From: Thermococcus argininiproducens
Lineage (GTDB): Archaea > Methanobacteriota_B > Thermococci > Thermococcales > Thermococcaceae
DNA: 64,000 nucleotides
Reading direction: 5' to 3'
Assembly: GCF_023746595.1 (NCBI RefSeq)
Contig: NZ_CP080572.1
Span: 1,782,530-1,846,529, forward strand
The notes beneath the pieces are model-generated. The model did not search any database. It had not been told where the DNA came from and saw nothing but the letters and a program-made list of their open reading frames with translations. Position 1 is the stretch's first letter. Every line of letters begins with the position of its first letter. Below, one piece after another: positions 14,162 through 19,658 of the stretch. A program made the translations under genes and the position numbers.

Positions 14162-15481
14162 ATGAAAATTGTTGTAATCGGTTCTGGTACGGCAGGTAGC
14201 AATTTCGCGCTTTTTGCAAGAAAAATAGACAGAAAAGCCGAGATAATCGTTATTGGAAAAGAAAAGACAATGCAATATTCTCCCTGTGCTTTGCCTTTTA
14301 CATTAAGTGGTAAAATACCAAAGCTTGAGGACATTGTTGTGTTTCCCACCGAATTTTATGAAAAACAAAAGATAAAGCTACTGCTTGAGACTGAAGCAAA
14401 AGCTATAGACAGAGAAAGAAAAGTCGTAGTTACAGATAAAGGAGAAATACCATATGACAAGTTGGTTCTAGCCACTGGATCAAAAGCGTTTGTACCTCCA
14501 ATAAAAGGAGTTGAAAGTGAGGGGGTCTTCACTTTAAAAACAATGGACGATGTAAAGCAAATTCAAAATTATATAAAAGAACGGAATCCTAAAAAAGCTT
14601 TAGTTATAGGAGCAGGCCTAATTGGACTCGAGGGTGCTGTTGCTTTTAGAGAAATCGGAATGGATGTCATTGTAGTAGAGCTTCTTGAGCATTTACTCCC
14701 CACCATGCTCGACAAGGATATGGCCTCCATTATCCAGTCACATATGGAAGAAAAAGGAATTCAATTTAGATTTGGTGCTGCGGTGAGTGAGATTATAGGA
14801 AACCCTGTAAATGCAGTAAGAATAGGGGAAGAAAAAATTGAGACCGATTTAGTCCTTGTGGCCACTGGAGTCAGGGCAAATACTGAATTAGCAAAGCAGG
14901 CGAATTTAGAGGTTAACAAAGGAATTATAGTGGACGAGTACCTCAGAACCAGTGACCCAGATATATACGCCATTGGAGATTGCGCGGAGGTTTATGATGC
15001 AGTAACCGGAAATCGGATTCTAAGTCAGCTCGGAACAACAGCAGTTAGAATGGCAAAAGTGGCTGCTGAAAATATCTTTGGCAGAAATGTGAAGTTTAAA
15101 CCAGTCTTCAATACTGCAATAACCGAACTTTTTGATTTAGAGATTGGTACATTTGGAATAACGCAGGAAAGAGCAAAAAAAGAGGGAATTGATGTAGTTA
15201 TTGGCAAATTTAAAGGATCCACCAAACCAGAGTACTATCCTGGAGGAAAGCCTATCACAGTGAAACTCATGTTTAGAAAGAAGGATAAAAAACTAATAGG
15301 AGCCCAGATAGTAGGTGGAGAAAGAGTTTGGGGCAGAATCATGGCGCTAAGCCTTGTAGCTCAAAAAGGAGCAAGTGTTGAAGATGTAGCATATAGCGAA
15401 ACTGCTTATGCCCCACCAATAAGCCCCACTATTGATCCCATAACAATCGCAGCTGAGATAGCATTGAGAAAATTCAAGTGA
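14162..15481 (+). CDS. NADH oxidase / CoA-disulfide reductase family flavoprotein
   Basis: A 439-residue FAD and NAD(P)H-dependent pyridine-nucleotide-disulfide oxidoreductase. An N-terminal FAD site (VVIGSGTAGSNFA), a single redox cysteine (Cys42 in YSPCALPF), an NAD-binding glycine motif (LVIGAGLIGLEGAVAF) and the second FAD motif (IYAIGDCAEV) are all present. Single-cysteine members include NADH oxidases, CoA-disulfide reductases and the NAD(P)H sulfur reductase of Pyrococcus; sequence alone does not separate these. The start at 14162 is preferred to an extended frame from 14099 because the glycine-rich motif begins directly after this ATG and GGTGGTG lies upstream. A TTTTTTTATA promoter element lies near 14118-14127. 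Confidence 0.85.
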   Translation: MKIVVIGSGTAGSNFALFARKIDRKAEIIVIGKEKTMQYSPCALPFTLSGKIPKLEDIVVFPTEFYEKQKIKLLLETEAKAIDRERKVVVTDKGEIPYDKLVLATGSKAFVPPIKGVESEGVFTLKTMDDVKQIQNYIKERNPKKALVIGAGLIGLEGAVAFREIGMDVIVVELLEHLLPTMLDKDMASIIQSHMEEKGIQFRFGAAVSEIIGNPVNAVRIGEEKIETDLVLVATGVRANTELAKQANLEVNKGIIVDEYLRTSDPDIYAIGDCAEVYDAVTGNRILSQLGTTAVRMAKVAAENIFGRNVKFKPVFNTAITELFDLEIGTFGITQERAKKEGIDVVIGKFKGSTKPEYYPGGKPITVKLMFRKKDKKLIGAQIVGGERVWGRIMALSLVAQKGASVEDVAYSETAYAPPISPTIDPITIAAEIALRKFK

Positions 15482-15482
15482 G

Positions 15483-15499
15483 TTTTTCCTATTTTTTTA
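15483..15499 (+). terminator. Oligo-T terminator after the flavoprotein gene
   Basis: Runs of five and seven T residues directly follow the stop codon, the pattern that terminates transcription in Thermococcales. Confidence 0.45.
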
Positions 15500-15540
15500 A
15501 CTTAATGAGTTATAAAAGGAAAACTCCCAAAAGCTAGGAA

Positions 15541-15750
15541 CTAATTAAGCTGAACAAGCTTATGGTATATTTTATCTAATATTTTCCCCGCTCTGGAGGA
15601 AATGTTTTCAAGAGAAAATGCAAGAAACATTGAGGAGCCAAGTACTTCAAGGTAACTCTTGCCTTCTCCTCAGTGAGCTCGACGCTATGAAGGAAAGAAT
15701 ACAAAATATACAAAGTAGGAAAAAATGTTAGAATTATTATGAATAGACTT
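15541..15750 (-). pseudogene. Decayed C-terminal gene fragment
   Basis: Minus-strand translation of this gap gives protein-like sequence in two frames. One frame reads LHSVELTEEKARVTLKYL and the next continues GSSMFLAFSLENISSRAGK then ILDKIYHKLVQLN before a TAG at 15541-15543. A single missing base near 15636 joins them. A hydrophobic stretch precedes it (IIILTFFPTLYILYSFL), then a stop. No start codon with a ribosome site was found. It looks like the C-terminal end of a lost membrane-associated protein; the family was not recognised. Confidence 0.4.
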
Positions 15751-15802
15751 TAAATTCACTTACTTCATATTTTGTCACAATGACAAATTAAGATGGAAAA
15801 AA

Positions 15803-15812
15803 TTTTTATAGA
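15803..15812 (+). promoter_or_regulatory. TATA box of the NSS transporter operon
   Basis: GGAAAAAA followed by TTTTTATAGA is a strong BRE/TATA-like element. Transcription should start near 15834, giving a leader of about 130 bases before the transporter GTG at 15962 and starting a few bases before the small ORF at 15842. Confidence 0.5.
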
Positions 15813-15841
15813 TAAACTCCATTTTAATGCGTTGATGCACC

Positions 15842-15883
15842 ATGATGAGCTGGAGTGAGTGTTTTTGGGAGTATAGTTGGTGA
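15842..15883 (+). CDS. Putative Trp-rich leader peptide (13 residues)
   Basis: ATG ATG AGC TGG opens a 13-codon frame reading MMSWSECFWEYSW followed by TGA. Three of 13 residues are tryptophan, with one Phe and one Tyr besides. The ATG lies about eight bases after the predicted transcription start, compatible with leaderless translation, and 79 bases separate its stop from the transporter GTG. Bacterial attenuators use Trp-rich leader peptides in this position; such a mechanism is not established in Archaea, so both translation and function are hypotheses. Confidence 0.35.
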   Translation: MMSWSECFWEYSW

Positions 15884-15961
15884 CGCTTTTCTATTAGTCA
15901 AAGGTAGGGATTGTTTTTGGCACTGATTTAACCGTCTCAAAAGCTTTTGGGGGTGTTCCTT

Positions 15962-17245
15962 GTGGTTAGAGAAACTTGGGGAAGTAGAGTAGGGTTTGTT
16001 GCAGCAGCTGTAGGAAGTGCAGTAGGCTTAGGAAACATCTGGATGTTTCCCATGCGAACTGGCCTCTACGGTGGAGCGGCCTTCTTGATACCGTATCTTA
16101 TTTTATTGTTTGCTGTTGGAGTGGTTGGACTTACAGTAGAGTGGACTCTCGGAAGAGCAACAAAAGGAGGACCAATAGAAGCATTCGCAAAAGCATTACC
16201 TGGCGGAAAATACCTTGGATTGCTAGTAAACGTGATAATGATAATGATATTTGCATTCTATTCCCTAGTACTTGGCTGGATACTCCGGTATTTTATAGCC
16301 TCACTTACTGGAGAGCTAGCGGGGGTTAATCCAGGAGCGTTCTTTGATACTTTAGCCTTCAGTAAAGAAGCAATATTATGGCAGTTTATTGTAATAGCGA
16401 TAACAGTAGGCATAGTTGCTATGGGAGTTCAGAAAGGTATTGAACGGGCCAACAAGATAATGATGCCTGCATTGTTTGTGCTCCTTATTATACTGACGAT
16501 AAGAAGTATTACTCTACCTAATGCTTATGAAGGGCTTAAATTTTACCTATTACCTGACTGGAGCAAAGTTATGAGTGGAAAGACATGGATGATAGCTCTA
16601 TCACAAATGTTCTTCTCATTGAGTGTCCTTGGAACTACAATGGTAGTCTATGGAAGCTACCTAAAGGAAAGTGATGACATACCTCTCTCGGCAATAGCAA
16701 CAGCCTTTGGAGATACAGCTGTGGCTGTCACAGCTGGTTTCTTAATATTCCCAGCAGTGTTTTCATTTGGGCTTGAACCAACAGCAGGACCAGGACTAAT
16801 TTTTGTCACACTTCCCATGGTCTTCCAAAAAATGCCAGGAGGAATACTTTTTGGCGCATTGTTCTTCCTGTTGTTAATATTCGCTGGATTGTCATCAACA
16901 GTCTCAATGCTTGAGGTATACGTGGATTCAGCAATAACAAAGCTCAACTTGAACAGAAGAAACGCCTCAATTCTTCTAGGTCTCTTAACATTTATAGTGG
17001 GAGCCCCTTCGGCACTCAATCCTTCATACTTTGAATGGCTGATTAACATCTCAACCGTTTATATAGGGCCATTAGGAGCTCTTATAGCTGCTTTAGCATT
17101 GATAAGGCTCGGAGTAGAAAAAGCTTACGAGGAAGTCAGAAAAAGTGCACTCATAGAAATTCCAGGAATTTGGAAACCTTGGGTGAAATACCTGTACCCA
17201 ATAGTGATAGTAGTGATATACATTTCACAGTTTATACTGGGGTGA
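15962..17245 (+). CDS. Sodium-dependent amino-acid transporter (NSS/SNF family)
   Basis: A protein of about 427 residues with around 11 transmembrane helices in the LeuT fold. The NSS signature is clear in helix 1: VGFVAAAVGSAVGLGNIWMF, followed by GGAAFLIPY. It uses the sodium gradient to import amino acids; NSS members in prokaryotes carry leucine, tryptophan, tyrosine, methionine or alanine. The GTG at 15962 is chosen because GGGGGTG lies about six bases upstream; a TTG at 15947 would add five residues. A tiny partner protein follows four bases after the stop, and a Trp-rich leader ORF precedes it, so an aromatic substrate is possible but unproven. Confidence 0.92.
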   Translation: MVRETWGSRVGFVAAAVGSAVGLGNIWMFPMRTGLYGGAAFLIPYLILLFAVGVVGLTVEWTLGRATKGGPIEAFAKALPGGKYLGLLVNVIMIMIFAFYSLVLGWILRYFIASLTGELAGVNPGAFFDTLAFSKEAILWQFIVIAITVGIVAMGVQKGIERANKIMMPALFVLLIILTIRSITLPNAYEGLKFYLLPDWSKVMSGKTWMIALSQMFFSLSVLGTTMVVYGSYLKESDDIPLSAIATAFGDTAVAVTAGFLIFPAVFSFGLEPTAGPGLIFVTLPMVFQKMPGGILFGALFFLLLIFAGLSSTVSMLEVYVDSAITKLNLNRRNASILLGLLTFIVGAPSALNPSYFEWLINISTVYIGPLGALIAALALIRLGVEKAYEEVRKSALIEIPGIWKPWVKYLYPIVIVVIYISQFILG

Positions 17246-17372: not shown

Positions 17373-18416
17373 ATGACACTAAAAAGGCTTTCCAAAATAG
17401 AAGATGATTATGCAAAAGACCTGCCAAAGGGCAACTATTTGGATTGTGCATTAGGCCATAACCCATTCGGATGTTCTCCTAGAGTATTAGAAGGAATCAC
17501 AAGAGTAAACCCTCAAGACATCTATCTTTATCCTTCCGGAGAAGAAAGGCTCAAGGAATCTATCGCAGAATACTGGGGAAACCTAAGTAAAGAGGAAATC
17601 TTTCTTGGAGCCGGGTCAATGGGATGCTTACAAATGATCAACAAGCTATTAACCAAAGGGTCCGTGGTTTTAGGCTACGCTCCGCAATTCTTACCCTACA
17701 TTAACGATGCAATAGCAAATGGTGCAGTTTATGAATACGTCCCTCTTAAGGAAGAAGATGAATTTAGTATCGATGTTAATGAGATAATAAATAACATAAC
17801 TAAGAAAACAACCTTCATTTATGTTGACAATCCCCATAACCCCACAGGACAGGTTTTATCTTTAAAAGATATCAAAGATATTGTAGAAGAAGCAGAGAAA
17901 AAAGGTGCACTTGTAATAGTTGATGAGGCCTTTGGAGACTTTATGCCAAAAAAGAACTCTGCAATAAGCCTTGAAAATGAGAATATTATAGTTACAAGGT
18001 CGTTCTCAAAGGGGTTTGGACTTGCTGGTCTAAGAATCGGGTATTGCATAGCCAGAGGAGAGATACGGAGAACTTTAACAAAAATTCACCTCCCATTTTC
18101 CACAACTATGCTCTCAATAAAAGCAGCAGTTCTTGCTTTGGAGGATAAGGACTTCTTAAAAACAGTTATAGAGGGGGTGAAAAGTAATAAAGCAAGGCTA
18201 ATAAAGTTCCTAAAGAAAGAGTTTTGTATAGCAAAAACCCACAAAGCTACCCCTATTTTTCTCTGTGGGAGAGAAAGTGATACATACTCCTACTTTTTAG
18301 AAAGAGGCATTGTAACAGTGCCTGGAGGTGAGTTCATCAACTTAGACAATTCTTACATCCGAATAAGAGTGCCAAGCGATGTTGAAGAGTTTTTAAAAAG
18401 AGTTACTTCAACTTAA
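17373..18416 (+). CDS. PLP-dependent aminotransferase, HisC/CobD-like (class I/II)
   Basis: A 347-residue fold-type I aminotransferase. It has LDCALGHNPFGCSP at the N-terminus (cf. LNxNENP in HisC), DNPHNPTGQV (about 149-158), VDEAFGDF (about 181-188) and the PLP lysine in TRSFSKGFGLAGLRIGY (about 208-224). This resembles histidinol-phosphate aminotransferase and threonine-phosphate decarboxylase. No his or cobalamin-synthesis genes are nearby. It lies 21 bases after the NSS small-subunit gene, so it may be co-transcribed with the amino-acid importer and act on the imported substrate. Its 3' end overlaps the convergent methyltransferase gene by 14 bases. Confidence 0.8.
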   Translation: MTLKRLSKIEDDYAKDLPKGNYLDCALGHNPFGCSPRVLEGITRVNPQDIYLYPSGEERLKESIAEYWGNLSKEEIFLGAGSMGCLQMINKLLTKGSVVLGYAPQFLPYINDAIANGAVYEYVPLKEEDEFSIDVNEIINNITKKTTFIYVDNPHNPTGQVLSLKDIKDIVEEAEKKGALVIVDEAFGDFMPKKNSAISLENENIIVTRSFSKGFGLAGLRIGYCIARGEIRRTLTKIHLPFSTTMLSIKAAVLALEDKDFLKTVIEGVKSNKARLIKFLKKEFCIAKTHKATPIFLCGRESDTYSYFLERGIVTVPGGEFINLDNSYIRIRVPSDVEEFLKRVTST

Positions 18417-19647
18417 GTTTTATAACAGCTTCAATATGAGAAGTATGAGGGAACATATCAATCAAGACCGCATCCTCAATTTCATAAGTTTCTCTTAAAT
18501 GTTTATAATCTCTCACAAACGCCTGTGGATTGCAAGAGATGTAAATTAGATTATTTACTTTGCTTTTTGCTATCAGCTTAACTGCTTCTTTTAACCCTTT
18601 TCGAGGAGGATCCACAATGACAGTATCATAATCTCCTATTTCAACATCCTTCACATCTCCTACTGAAAACCTAGCATCTACCCCATTAATTTCGGCATTT
18701 TTGTTTGCTATCTCAACTGCAAGTGAATTTATTTCAATCCCTTCAACTCTAAGGCCTCTTTTTGCTAGGTAGATTCCAAAAGTGCCCACGCCAGCATAGA
18801 GATCAAATACGCTTTCGCCTTCTATGAAATCCCATACTGCTTTCAAAAGAAGACGAGTAGCATAGGAGTTTGTCTGGAAAAAGCTATTAGGGTGGATTAG
18901 ATACATAACATCCCCAATTTTTTCTCTTATGTAGGGAGAGCCACCTACAAGGACCGGGGTGCCCCTAGGATCGTCCTTACTATCATCTTTAAAACTCCAA
19001 TAAATGGAGCCCGCAAAATCGAAGTAATCGATAAAACTTGAAGGCACTTCTTTGATGTGGGCAATCATATTTACCATAATGTCTCCTGTGAATTTCCCTT
19101 CTCTAACGGAAAGATAGTGTATCTCACCAAATTTTTGCTTTGAATCCCATGGCATGAGTCTTTCCTCTTTCATGAACTTCTTCAATGTAAGCAAGAATTT
19201 CGACGTTTTGTTCGAGAAAATAGGACATTCCTTCACCTCTACAACATTCTGGGATTCCCTCTGTTTAAATCCAATTCCTCTAGTAGAAACTATAAAGTTG
19301 CTAATATTTCTAAAACCCCAGATTTTCGGTGATCCTTTTATTGGAGCTTCTATTCCAGTGGCCTTCCTAAAAAGCTCATTTTTTAGATTAAGTTGCTCTT
19401 GATATTTTATATGCTGCCAAAAACAACCTCCACATCTTTCAAAATGAGAACATCGCGGTCTCTGTCTTAGATGCGATTCTTCAATGATTTCAAACTCTCT
19501 AGCTATGTATCTCCCGAATCGTCTGAATGTTTTTCTAACTTCCACTAAATCACCAATTACAGTAAAAGGTACATGGACCGGTTTTTGAAGATCCAATACT
19601 CCGTATCCATCAAAACTTATTTGCGTTATATATCCTCGCCCTTTCAT
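18403..19647 (-). CDS. TrmA/RumA-type RNA (uracil-5-)-methyltransferase
   Basis: A SAM-dependent RNA m5U methyltransferase of about 414 residues. An N-terminal TRAM-like domain (GRGYITQISFDGYGVL) precedes an Fe-S cysteine set (RCSHFERCGGCFWQ plus a later VKECPIF), then the Rossmann domain with DLYAGVGTFGIYLA, VDPPRKGL and the catalytic cysteine in YISCNP. Pyrococcus has two such enzymes, one making m5U54 in tRNA and one acting on 23S rRNA; the sequence seen does not decide between them. An ATG at 19647 is used, although a GTG three codons upstream is possible. Confidence 0.88.
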   Translation of the reverse strand: MKGRGYITQISFDGYGVLDLQKPVHVPFTVIGDLVEVRKTFRRFGRYIAREFEIIEESHLRQRPRCSHFERCGGCFWQHIKYQEQLNLKNELFRKATGIEAPIKGSPKIWGFRNISNFIVSTRGIGFKQRESQNVVEVKECPIFSNKTSKFLLTLKKFMKEERLMPWDSKQKFGEIHYLSVREGKFTGDIMVNMIAHIKEVPSSFIDYFDFAGSIYWSFKDDSKDDPRGTPVLVGGSPYIREKIGDVMYLIHPNSFFQTNSYATRLLLKAVWDFIEGESVFDLYAGVGTFGIYLAKRGLRVEGIEINSLAVEIANKNAEINGVDARFSVGDVKDVEIGDYDTVIVDPPRKGLKEAVKLIAKSKVNNLIYISCNPQAFVRDYKHLRETYEIEDAVLIDMFPHTSHIEAVIKLKLK

Positions 19648-19658
19648 CTCTCTCACTA

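Follow-up and report, generated by a model that had tools for sequence, protein, structure and literature searches.

The 13-codon open reading frame (ORF) with Trp codons that lies ahead of an NSS-family amino-acid transporter gene in Thermococcus argininiproducens appears, from its conserved sequence context, to be the first segment of a larger device, which is very probably a translational sensor of charged tRNA-Trp working through repeated programmed +1 frameshifting. It is also likely that, throughout the Thermococcaceae, up to three serial, starvation-dependent +1 shifts precede trpB2 or a Trp transporter gene and act as an AND gate, whose output is a power of the slippage at a single site. 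The first-pass annotation of this DNA had likened the ORF to a bacterial attenuator leader peptide; the part of that idea which stands is a short Trp-codon leader ORF, retained by descent, before Trp-acquisition genes, while the attenuator mechanism gives way to a leader of overlapping frames, two to four in number, with +1 steps between them.

In the window (the whole stretch of 64,000 nucleotides that was analysed, from a genome consisting of a single contig of 1,946,248 bases), this ORF, hereafter ORF1, occupies positions 15842-15883 on the forward strand and encodes MMSWSECFWEYSW* through the codons ATG ATG AGC TGG AGT GAG TGT TTT TGG GAG TAT AGT TGG TGA, which confirms the short Trp-codon ORF originally described there. 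A TATA-like box, TTTTTATA (15803-15810, +), lies upstream within an aligned block that is conserved in the genus, and from it transcription is predicted to start near 15834, so that the earlier placement of the ORF behind a predicted transcription start holds. Directly 5' of the box there is an inverted repeat, TTTGTCACAATGACAAA (15771-15787), a possible operator, which has similar counterparts in the genus but not in G014 and G093. ORF1, the putative entry segment of the relay, contains the first shift cassette (15852-15868, +), composed of the Shine-Dalgarno (SD)-like run GGAGTGAG, the codon TGT, the P-site codon TTT and the A-site codon TGG at 15866-15868. After one +1 shift the ribosome would read segment 2 (GSIVGDAFLLVKGRDCF-W-H*; 15867-15926, +), which holds the second cassette, GGT AGG GAT TGT TTT TGG (15903-15920, +; Trp codon 15918-15920), at a spacing of 52 nt (1 mod 3) from the first, and which stops, if unshifted, at the TGA at 15924-15926. 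After another shift it would read segment 3 (GTDLTVSKAFGGVPCG*; 15919-15969, +), which has the same layout in other NSS leaders, and whose stop codon TAG (15967-15969) is located just beyond the transporter's start codon, 5 nt past the GTG start. The complete +1 path of the window, with its two shifts, is thus MMSWSECF>GSIVGDAFLLVKGRDCF>GTDLTVSKAFGGVPCG*.

The presumed controlled gene, which encodes the NSS-family transporter (15962-17245, +), is preceded by an SD-like run, GGGGGTG (15949-15955, +), recognized from the sequence and the 16S 3' end, and its GTG start at 15962 lies 78 nt downstream of ORF1; the close upstream position of the ORF had been noticed correctly, with a gap given as 79. 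Among solved structures the transporter is closest to MhsT (4us3, 263 bits; runner-up about 160), and MhsT binds Trp. A palindrome, CAAAAGCTTTTG (15938-15949), to which the first reading of the leader had drawn attention, is indeed present, but it is conserved in the closest relatives only and runs into the transporter's SD. Directly 3' of the transporter, at 17373-18416, there is a gene for an aminotransferase of the HisC/CobD kind, which scores below the curated family cut-offs. In addition, ATGATGA with CTGA, which we take to be a C/D-box-like motif, was seen by eye in the window leader and was discarded, as it is not conserved in relatives.

To examine the conservation of ORF1, the upstream regions of 15 NSS genes, orthologous or close, were aligned, and the ORF with its start codon was found ahead of 13 of them, with the consensus M-x-F-R-S-E-(C/G/Y)-(F/L)-W. 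It is missing from the NSS copies G009:C43 (74% identity) and G011:C4 (76% identity), which are more distant. The window ORF1 is an outlier among these, since the Phe-Arg that its relatives carry at codons 3-4 is changed to Ser-Trp, creating the third Trp. The three Trp codons pointed out in the beginning therefore differ greatly in their conservation: the Trp at codon 9 is present in 82/82 leaders, the one at codon 4 is private to the window genome, and the last one is kept only within the window's genus.

On the family scale, the core AGG-AGT-GAK-NGT-TTT-TGG was traced in 94 Thermococcaceae genomes. The pattern CAGGAGTGAGNGTYTTTGG with at most 2 mismatches has matches in 82/94 of them, mostly single ones, and R1, a sequence model spanning 42 positions, finds 83 strong sites (E<=1.2e-5) in 79/94 genomes plus three weaker matches (E 0.02-0.03), which speaks against an ORF that arose by chance. 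Of the strong sites, 80 are followed by the start of a trpB2 or NSS gene, 2 by decayed remnants of these (trpB2 in G015; NSS in G009:C34, where the leader is broken shortly after its start codon), and 1, in G065, lies at a contig end. The leader of G015 (L132) itself looks intact before its apparent decayed trpB2 remnant. In most genomes the downstream gene is trpB2 and not the transporter gene, and its protein matches NCBIfam TIGR01415 (TrpB-like). Of the 69 genomes with trpB2, 66 have the leader, the others being the window genome, G020, and G091, in which the contig ends at that spot; the window genome's own trpB2 (G000:C1:146101-147387, -) has a different upstream region and a shortened N terminus. 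Four genomes (G002, G004, G007 and G093) carry two leaders each, one per gene (trpB2 and NSS). No match to the leader was found in the 21 genomes from other families of the phylum among the 115 searched, and the five extra pattern hits that were examined for a cassette at other genes (in G002, G004, G009, G019 and G021) turned out to lie in unrelated stretches. In total, 84 leader sequences were gathered, from which those of G020 and of the window genome's trpB2 (G000t) were dropped for having no copy 1. In all the remaining 82 leaders the start codon of ORF1 is kept (ATG in 81, GTG in 1). The peptide R-S-D/E-x-F-W is conserved. A leaderless 7-codon ORF starting from GATGC was also considered and rejected by eye, because G033 has lost this start and the trpB2 leaders of G002, G004 and G007, which keep ORF1, do not have it.

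Each cassette has the same order of elements, i.e. an SD-like purine run, one codon, a slippery UUU_U (or CUU_U), and the Trp codon UGG. At the first cassette the A-site codon is Trp in 82/82 leaders, and over shifts 1-3 the P-site codon is TTT in 204/207 cases and CTT in 3/207, in a count that admitted only these two codons; the site definitions demanded TGG, hence the constancy at copies 2-3 is by construction. A looser scan, with two mismatches allowed before the final GG, found no TTC in the P site; both TTT and TTC are common in ordinary genes, occurring 554 and 277 times, respectively, in the 53 ORFs of the window. The T run before GG is five long at 169/211 sites; a further 36 sites have four T, and 5 have three that follow a C. 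What stays constant in the run is, on the face of the sequence, the requirement for +1 re-pairing of the P-site tRNA. The predicted duplex with the anti-SD, which is confirmed by the 16S 3' end of the window genome (GATCACCTCCT), has a mean energy of -7 to -10 kcal/mol and sits one codon before the P site, the minimum being reached, at sites 1-3, by 9-mers whose last base lies 5-6 nt before TGG. In the ordinary genes of the window UUU-UGG occurs once against 6.6 expected; as TTC-TGG is also low (1 against 3.3), an avoidance of UUU-UGG is only suggested. The sole in-frame TTT-TGG among the 53 window ORFs is located in the gene at 18403-19656 (-), where it likewise follows a run of GGAGG and the codon TGT (GGAGGT-TGT-TTT-TGG).

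Later copies of the cassette, usually one or two, follow the first core; a typical copy 2 reads GGG-CGG-GAT-TGT-TTT-TGG, often with GTTAG(T/C)C on its 5' side, and the next AGG-GGG-GNN-TGT-TTT-TGG. Over the 82 leaders, the spacing between successive copies is 1 mod 3 in 123/130 pairs, with twelve different lengths (25, 28, 31, 37, 52, 55, 58, 61, 64, 67, 73 and 142 nt), and 0 mod 3 in the other 7/130 (24, 27, 30 three times, 90 and 141 nt); a spacing of 2 mod 3 does not occur among them. A spacing of 1 mod 3 means that each copy reads -C-F-W- (or R-F-W etc.) one frame on from the previous one, and between the copies this +1 frame is open from copy to copy.

To follow this frame through a whole leader, we read from the start codon of ORF1, advanced one base at each in-frame TTT-TGG or CTT-TGG, and counted a path as successful if it reached the start region, i.e. 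ended no more than 45 nt short of the gene start. Three leaders (G015, G065 and G072) lacked an automatically assigned gene start, although the path of G072 is seen to end in ATGA, and the start in G038 was corrected by hand. In 79/79 leaders with an assigned gene start the +1 path reaches the start region, compared with 1/79 without a shift and 1/79 with a -1 shift (within 45 nt; both being the very short leader of G018), and 13.75/79 expected when the spacers are dinucleotide-shuffled and the copies and their spacings left unchanged. Since kinship among the genomes inflates these raw counts, the test was also run on 17 similarity clusters, of which 17/17 reach the start against 3.7 expected. 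The first spacer carries a stop in one of its non-path frames in 67/71 leaders and in the other in 71/71, the zero stops of the path frame being by construction. In the unshifted frame the median distance from the Trp codon to the stop is two codons for sites 1 and 2, and six for site 3.

The path ends exactly in the stop-start overlap ATGA in 52/79 leaders, the window leader not being among these. The other ends range from 39 nt before to 60 nt past the gene start, with six leaders stopping 15-39 nt short of the assigned start and several 5 to 60 nt beyond it, while G018 runs into TrpB2; in 13/13 NSS leaders the path overshoots the first base of the gene by 5 to 28 nt. An example is G030, with the path MIARSDCF>GFDGFPFEMSVSPKTSGRDCF>GAELRRGCF>GSSESPLITGLVLTLLFPRLLGLLKTLKPEEVVE*, the TGA of which overlaps the ATG of trpB2. 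The relation between the ORF1-to-gene distance and the number of shifts is arithmetic that follows from these path ends, and is not counted as separate evidence. No codon-position bias was found in the +1 segments, hence no sign of coding selection on their peptides; the peptide of a segment seems to be irrelevant and its openness not, which fits a pure gate and yet removes the usual coding signature. In genus g4, the nucleotides of a block ATTATTCCCTC-N-TTTTGGGA, located some 45-60 nt upstream of trpB2, are conserved whatever the path frame.

Natural variants, as far as their sequences can tell, speak for a shift. The leader of G041 has 238 nt and 2 shifts, that of G051 has 239 nt and 3 shifts, and the downstream frame is kept; likewise, in G023, G050 and G073 a later copy lies one base closer and out of step, and there is one shift fewer with the frame kept, though homopolymer sequencing errors may account for one-base variants in draft genomes. 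In G085 a fourth shift is required, and it is present. The leader of G018 contains only one cassette, and its +1 frame runs directly into the TrpB2 sequence, GSKAEIHAKSILKDGEIPKRWYN..., staying open over 455 codons. No in-frame ATG precedes codon 96, and the sole start-like codon in that stretch, a GTG within the SD-like run, could in principle start this TrpB2.

From this architecture we infer slippage, Trp dependence, reinitiation and raised expression of the downstream gene, in the following manner. A ribosome would initiate at ORF1 and then meet a cassette with UGG in the A site. When Trp-tRNA is ample, UGG would be decoded and termination would follow a few codons on; when it is scarce, the ribosome would wait, and the tRNA-Phe on UUU could slip forward by one base onto the overlapping UUU, which would bring GGN (Gly) into the A site and allow the +1 frame to be read up to the next cassette. 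Each cassette would repeat the test, twice in the window and usually three times before trpB2, so that the gene would be accessible only to ribosomes slipping every time; as the last segment terminates at or close to its start codon, these could then reinitiate there. With three cassettes the output would be the third power of a single shift, giving a small leak and a steep response; transcript polarity caused by early termination may be an extra effect. The controlled genes, encoding TrpB2 and an MhsT-like transporter, are those that a Trp-starved cell wants. A title in the reference list of PMC4681839 assigns TrpB2 of T. kodakarensis to Trp synthesis and indole salvage, and the abstract of PMC6728339 describes ATGA overlaps as coupling translation in archaea. 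If the proposal is true, hungry-codon frameshifting has a natural regulatory use, and TrpB2 of the G018 lineage is made only as a frameshift product.

Several observations count against this proposal. Most trpB2 and transporter genes have an SD and a start codon of their own, which weighs against access through the leader only, and initiation at these genes independent of the leader is possible. The trpB2 genes of G020 and of the window genome, as well as the NSS copies of G009 and G011 with 74-76% identity, exist without the leader. Furthermore, according to passages of PMC5009743, bacterial slippage is weaker on UUU_U than on CUU_U, and the elaborate modification of base 37 in tRNA-Phe may hinder shifting.

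Among the alternatives, the shifts might be real and Trp-independent, forming a constitutive relay of low efficiency that merely throttles translation. Sequence cannot reveal Trp dependence, and SD-stimulated slippage on UUU_U could be expected at any slow A-site codon; however, the first A site is Trp in every one of the 82 leaders and the gene is trpB2 or MhsT-like wherever it is visible, so we regard this as unlikely. Classical attenuation or nascent-peptide arrest, in which a stall on ORF1 alters RNA folding and the other frames are irrelevant, is very unlikely: the short conserved ORF, its constant Trp codon and the peptide R-S-D/E-x-F-W would suit it, but it leaves the 1 mod 3 spacing, the open +1 path and the repeated cassettes in later frames unexplained. 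Moreover, no terminator-like hairpin occurs in window positions 15480-16000, and a search of 14 leader loci against Rfam 15 gave no match at E<=0.5, the window stretch yielding only a sub-threshold U12 hit outside the leader. Nor does a marked consensus fold emerge before trpB2 in 47 leaders; for a possible hairpin covering the SD of trpB2, RNAalifold on the 47 last segments returned no more than a helix of 3 pairs and one of 6 pairs at the gene start. With no run of Trp codons and a palindrome that is not conserved in addition, the bacterial attenuator model first proposed for this leader is not upheld.

The remaining readings account for the frames in other ways. Entry into the second frame by initiation at the GTG inside cassette 1 (GGAGTGA) would dispense with a shift, and this GTG is present in nearly all first copies and in frame with copy 2; yet it overlaps the SD-like run, it is GCG in G011, and most leaders have no start codon in frame with the third copy, so that we give this reading very little credence. 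Slippage of RNA polymerase on the T run is hardly credible as the cause of the frame changes. Five T at 169 of the 211 sites might invite it, but 36 sites have four T and 5 have three after C, which suits tRNA re-pairing on UUU_U or CUU_U, T runs of three to four are short for RNA polymerase slippage, and neither a Trp codon nor an SD-like run would be needed. Nor do we attach any real weight to the view that the repeats are sites for a regulatory RNA- or DNA-binding protein, with incidental frame relations: nucleotide-level conservation of the cassette and its recurrence on a single strand would fit, but the twelve predominant spacings are all 1 mod 3, the path is open in 79 of 79 leaders, and the other two frames of the first spacer are stopped in 67 and 71 of 71. 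The reading as a Trp-responsive relay of +1 shifts accordingly stays the preferred one.

This relay can be compared with several known systems. Bacterial trpL attenuators place a short leader ORF with Trp codons before Trp genes, and its translation senses charged tRNA-Trp. The 82 leaders are like trpL in having such an ORF before Trp genes and in that they would sense the same molecule; they differ in that no intrinsic terminator or antiterminator was found, in having one conserved Trp codon per segment instead of a run, and in that the output would be a frame change and not stalling. For attenuators and riboswitches in Archaea, the T. kodakarensis transcriptome paper (PMC4247193) states that direct experimental support in vivo was lacking as of 2014. 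The word trp is absent from the main text of that paper, and likewise from PMC3124441, and PMC1854888 discusses trpB2 without the word leader. As no description of the leader was found in our literature search, with most subscription papers beyond reach, we call the system categorically new in design. It is a family-wide candidate for attenuator-type regulation in archaea and for functional hungry-codon frameshifting, and it sits in organisms with genetics and offers natural variants with one to four shifts, one-base compensations and a direct TrpB2 fusion. The number of cassettes could serve to set the steepness of a serial-frameshift design, and annotated 5' leaders can conceal coding paths that are invisible to ordinary ORF finders.

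With regard to frameshifting, passages of PMC5009743 present telithromycin-induced frameshifting in the ermC leader as a case of a regulatory leader, and that in pheL as incidental. As in the ermC leader ORF, a frameshift would let ribosomes run on toward the downstream gene; in ermC, in contrast, it is a single, drug-induced event that acts through mRNA unfolding, while here it would be serial, in the +1 direction, and caused by Trp shortage. The slip at an A site whose aminoacyl-tRNA is scarce is shared with hungry-codon frameshifting, which, unlike the leader, has been studied as an error; functional trans-frame products specific to starvation were not known as of 2016, according to the same passages (PMC5009743). 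These passages also describe the RF2 cassette, with its internal SD and CUU_U, or UUU_U in a small minority of species (PMC5009743). The leaders' cassette resembles this cassette of the bacterial RF2 gene, prfB, which shares the SD-like run, the short spacer, the slippery CUU_U or UUU_U, the slow A-site codon as the sensor, and a short zero frame with the +1 product as the useful one. The spacer of prfB is one codon. The leaders differ from prfB in that the A site holds TGG (Trp) and not UGA, the genes are trpB2 or NSS and not that of RF2, two to three cassettes are arranged in series in an archaeal leader, and the relay mostly ends at a separate gene start and does not itself encode the protein. 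The cassette would thus work like that of RF2 without being a member of its family.
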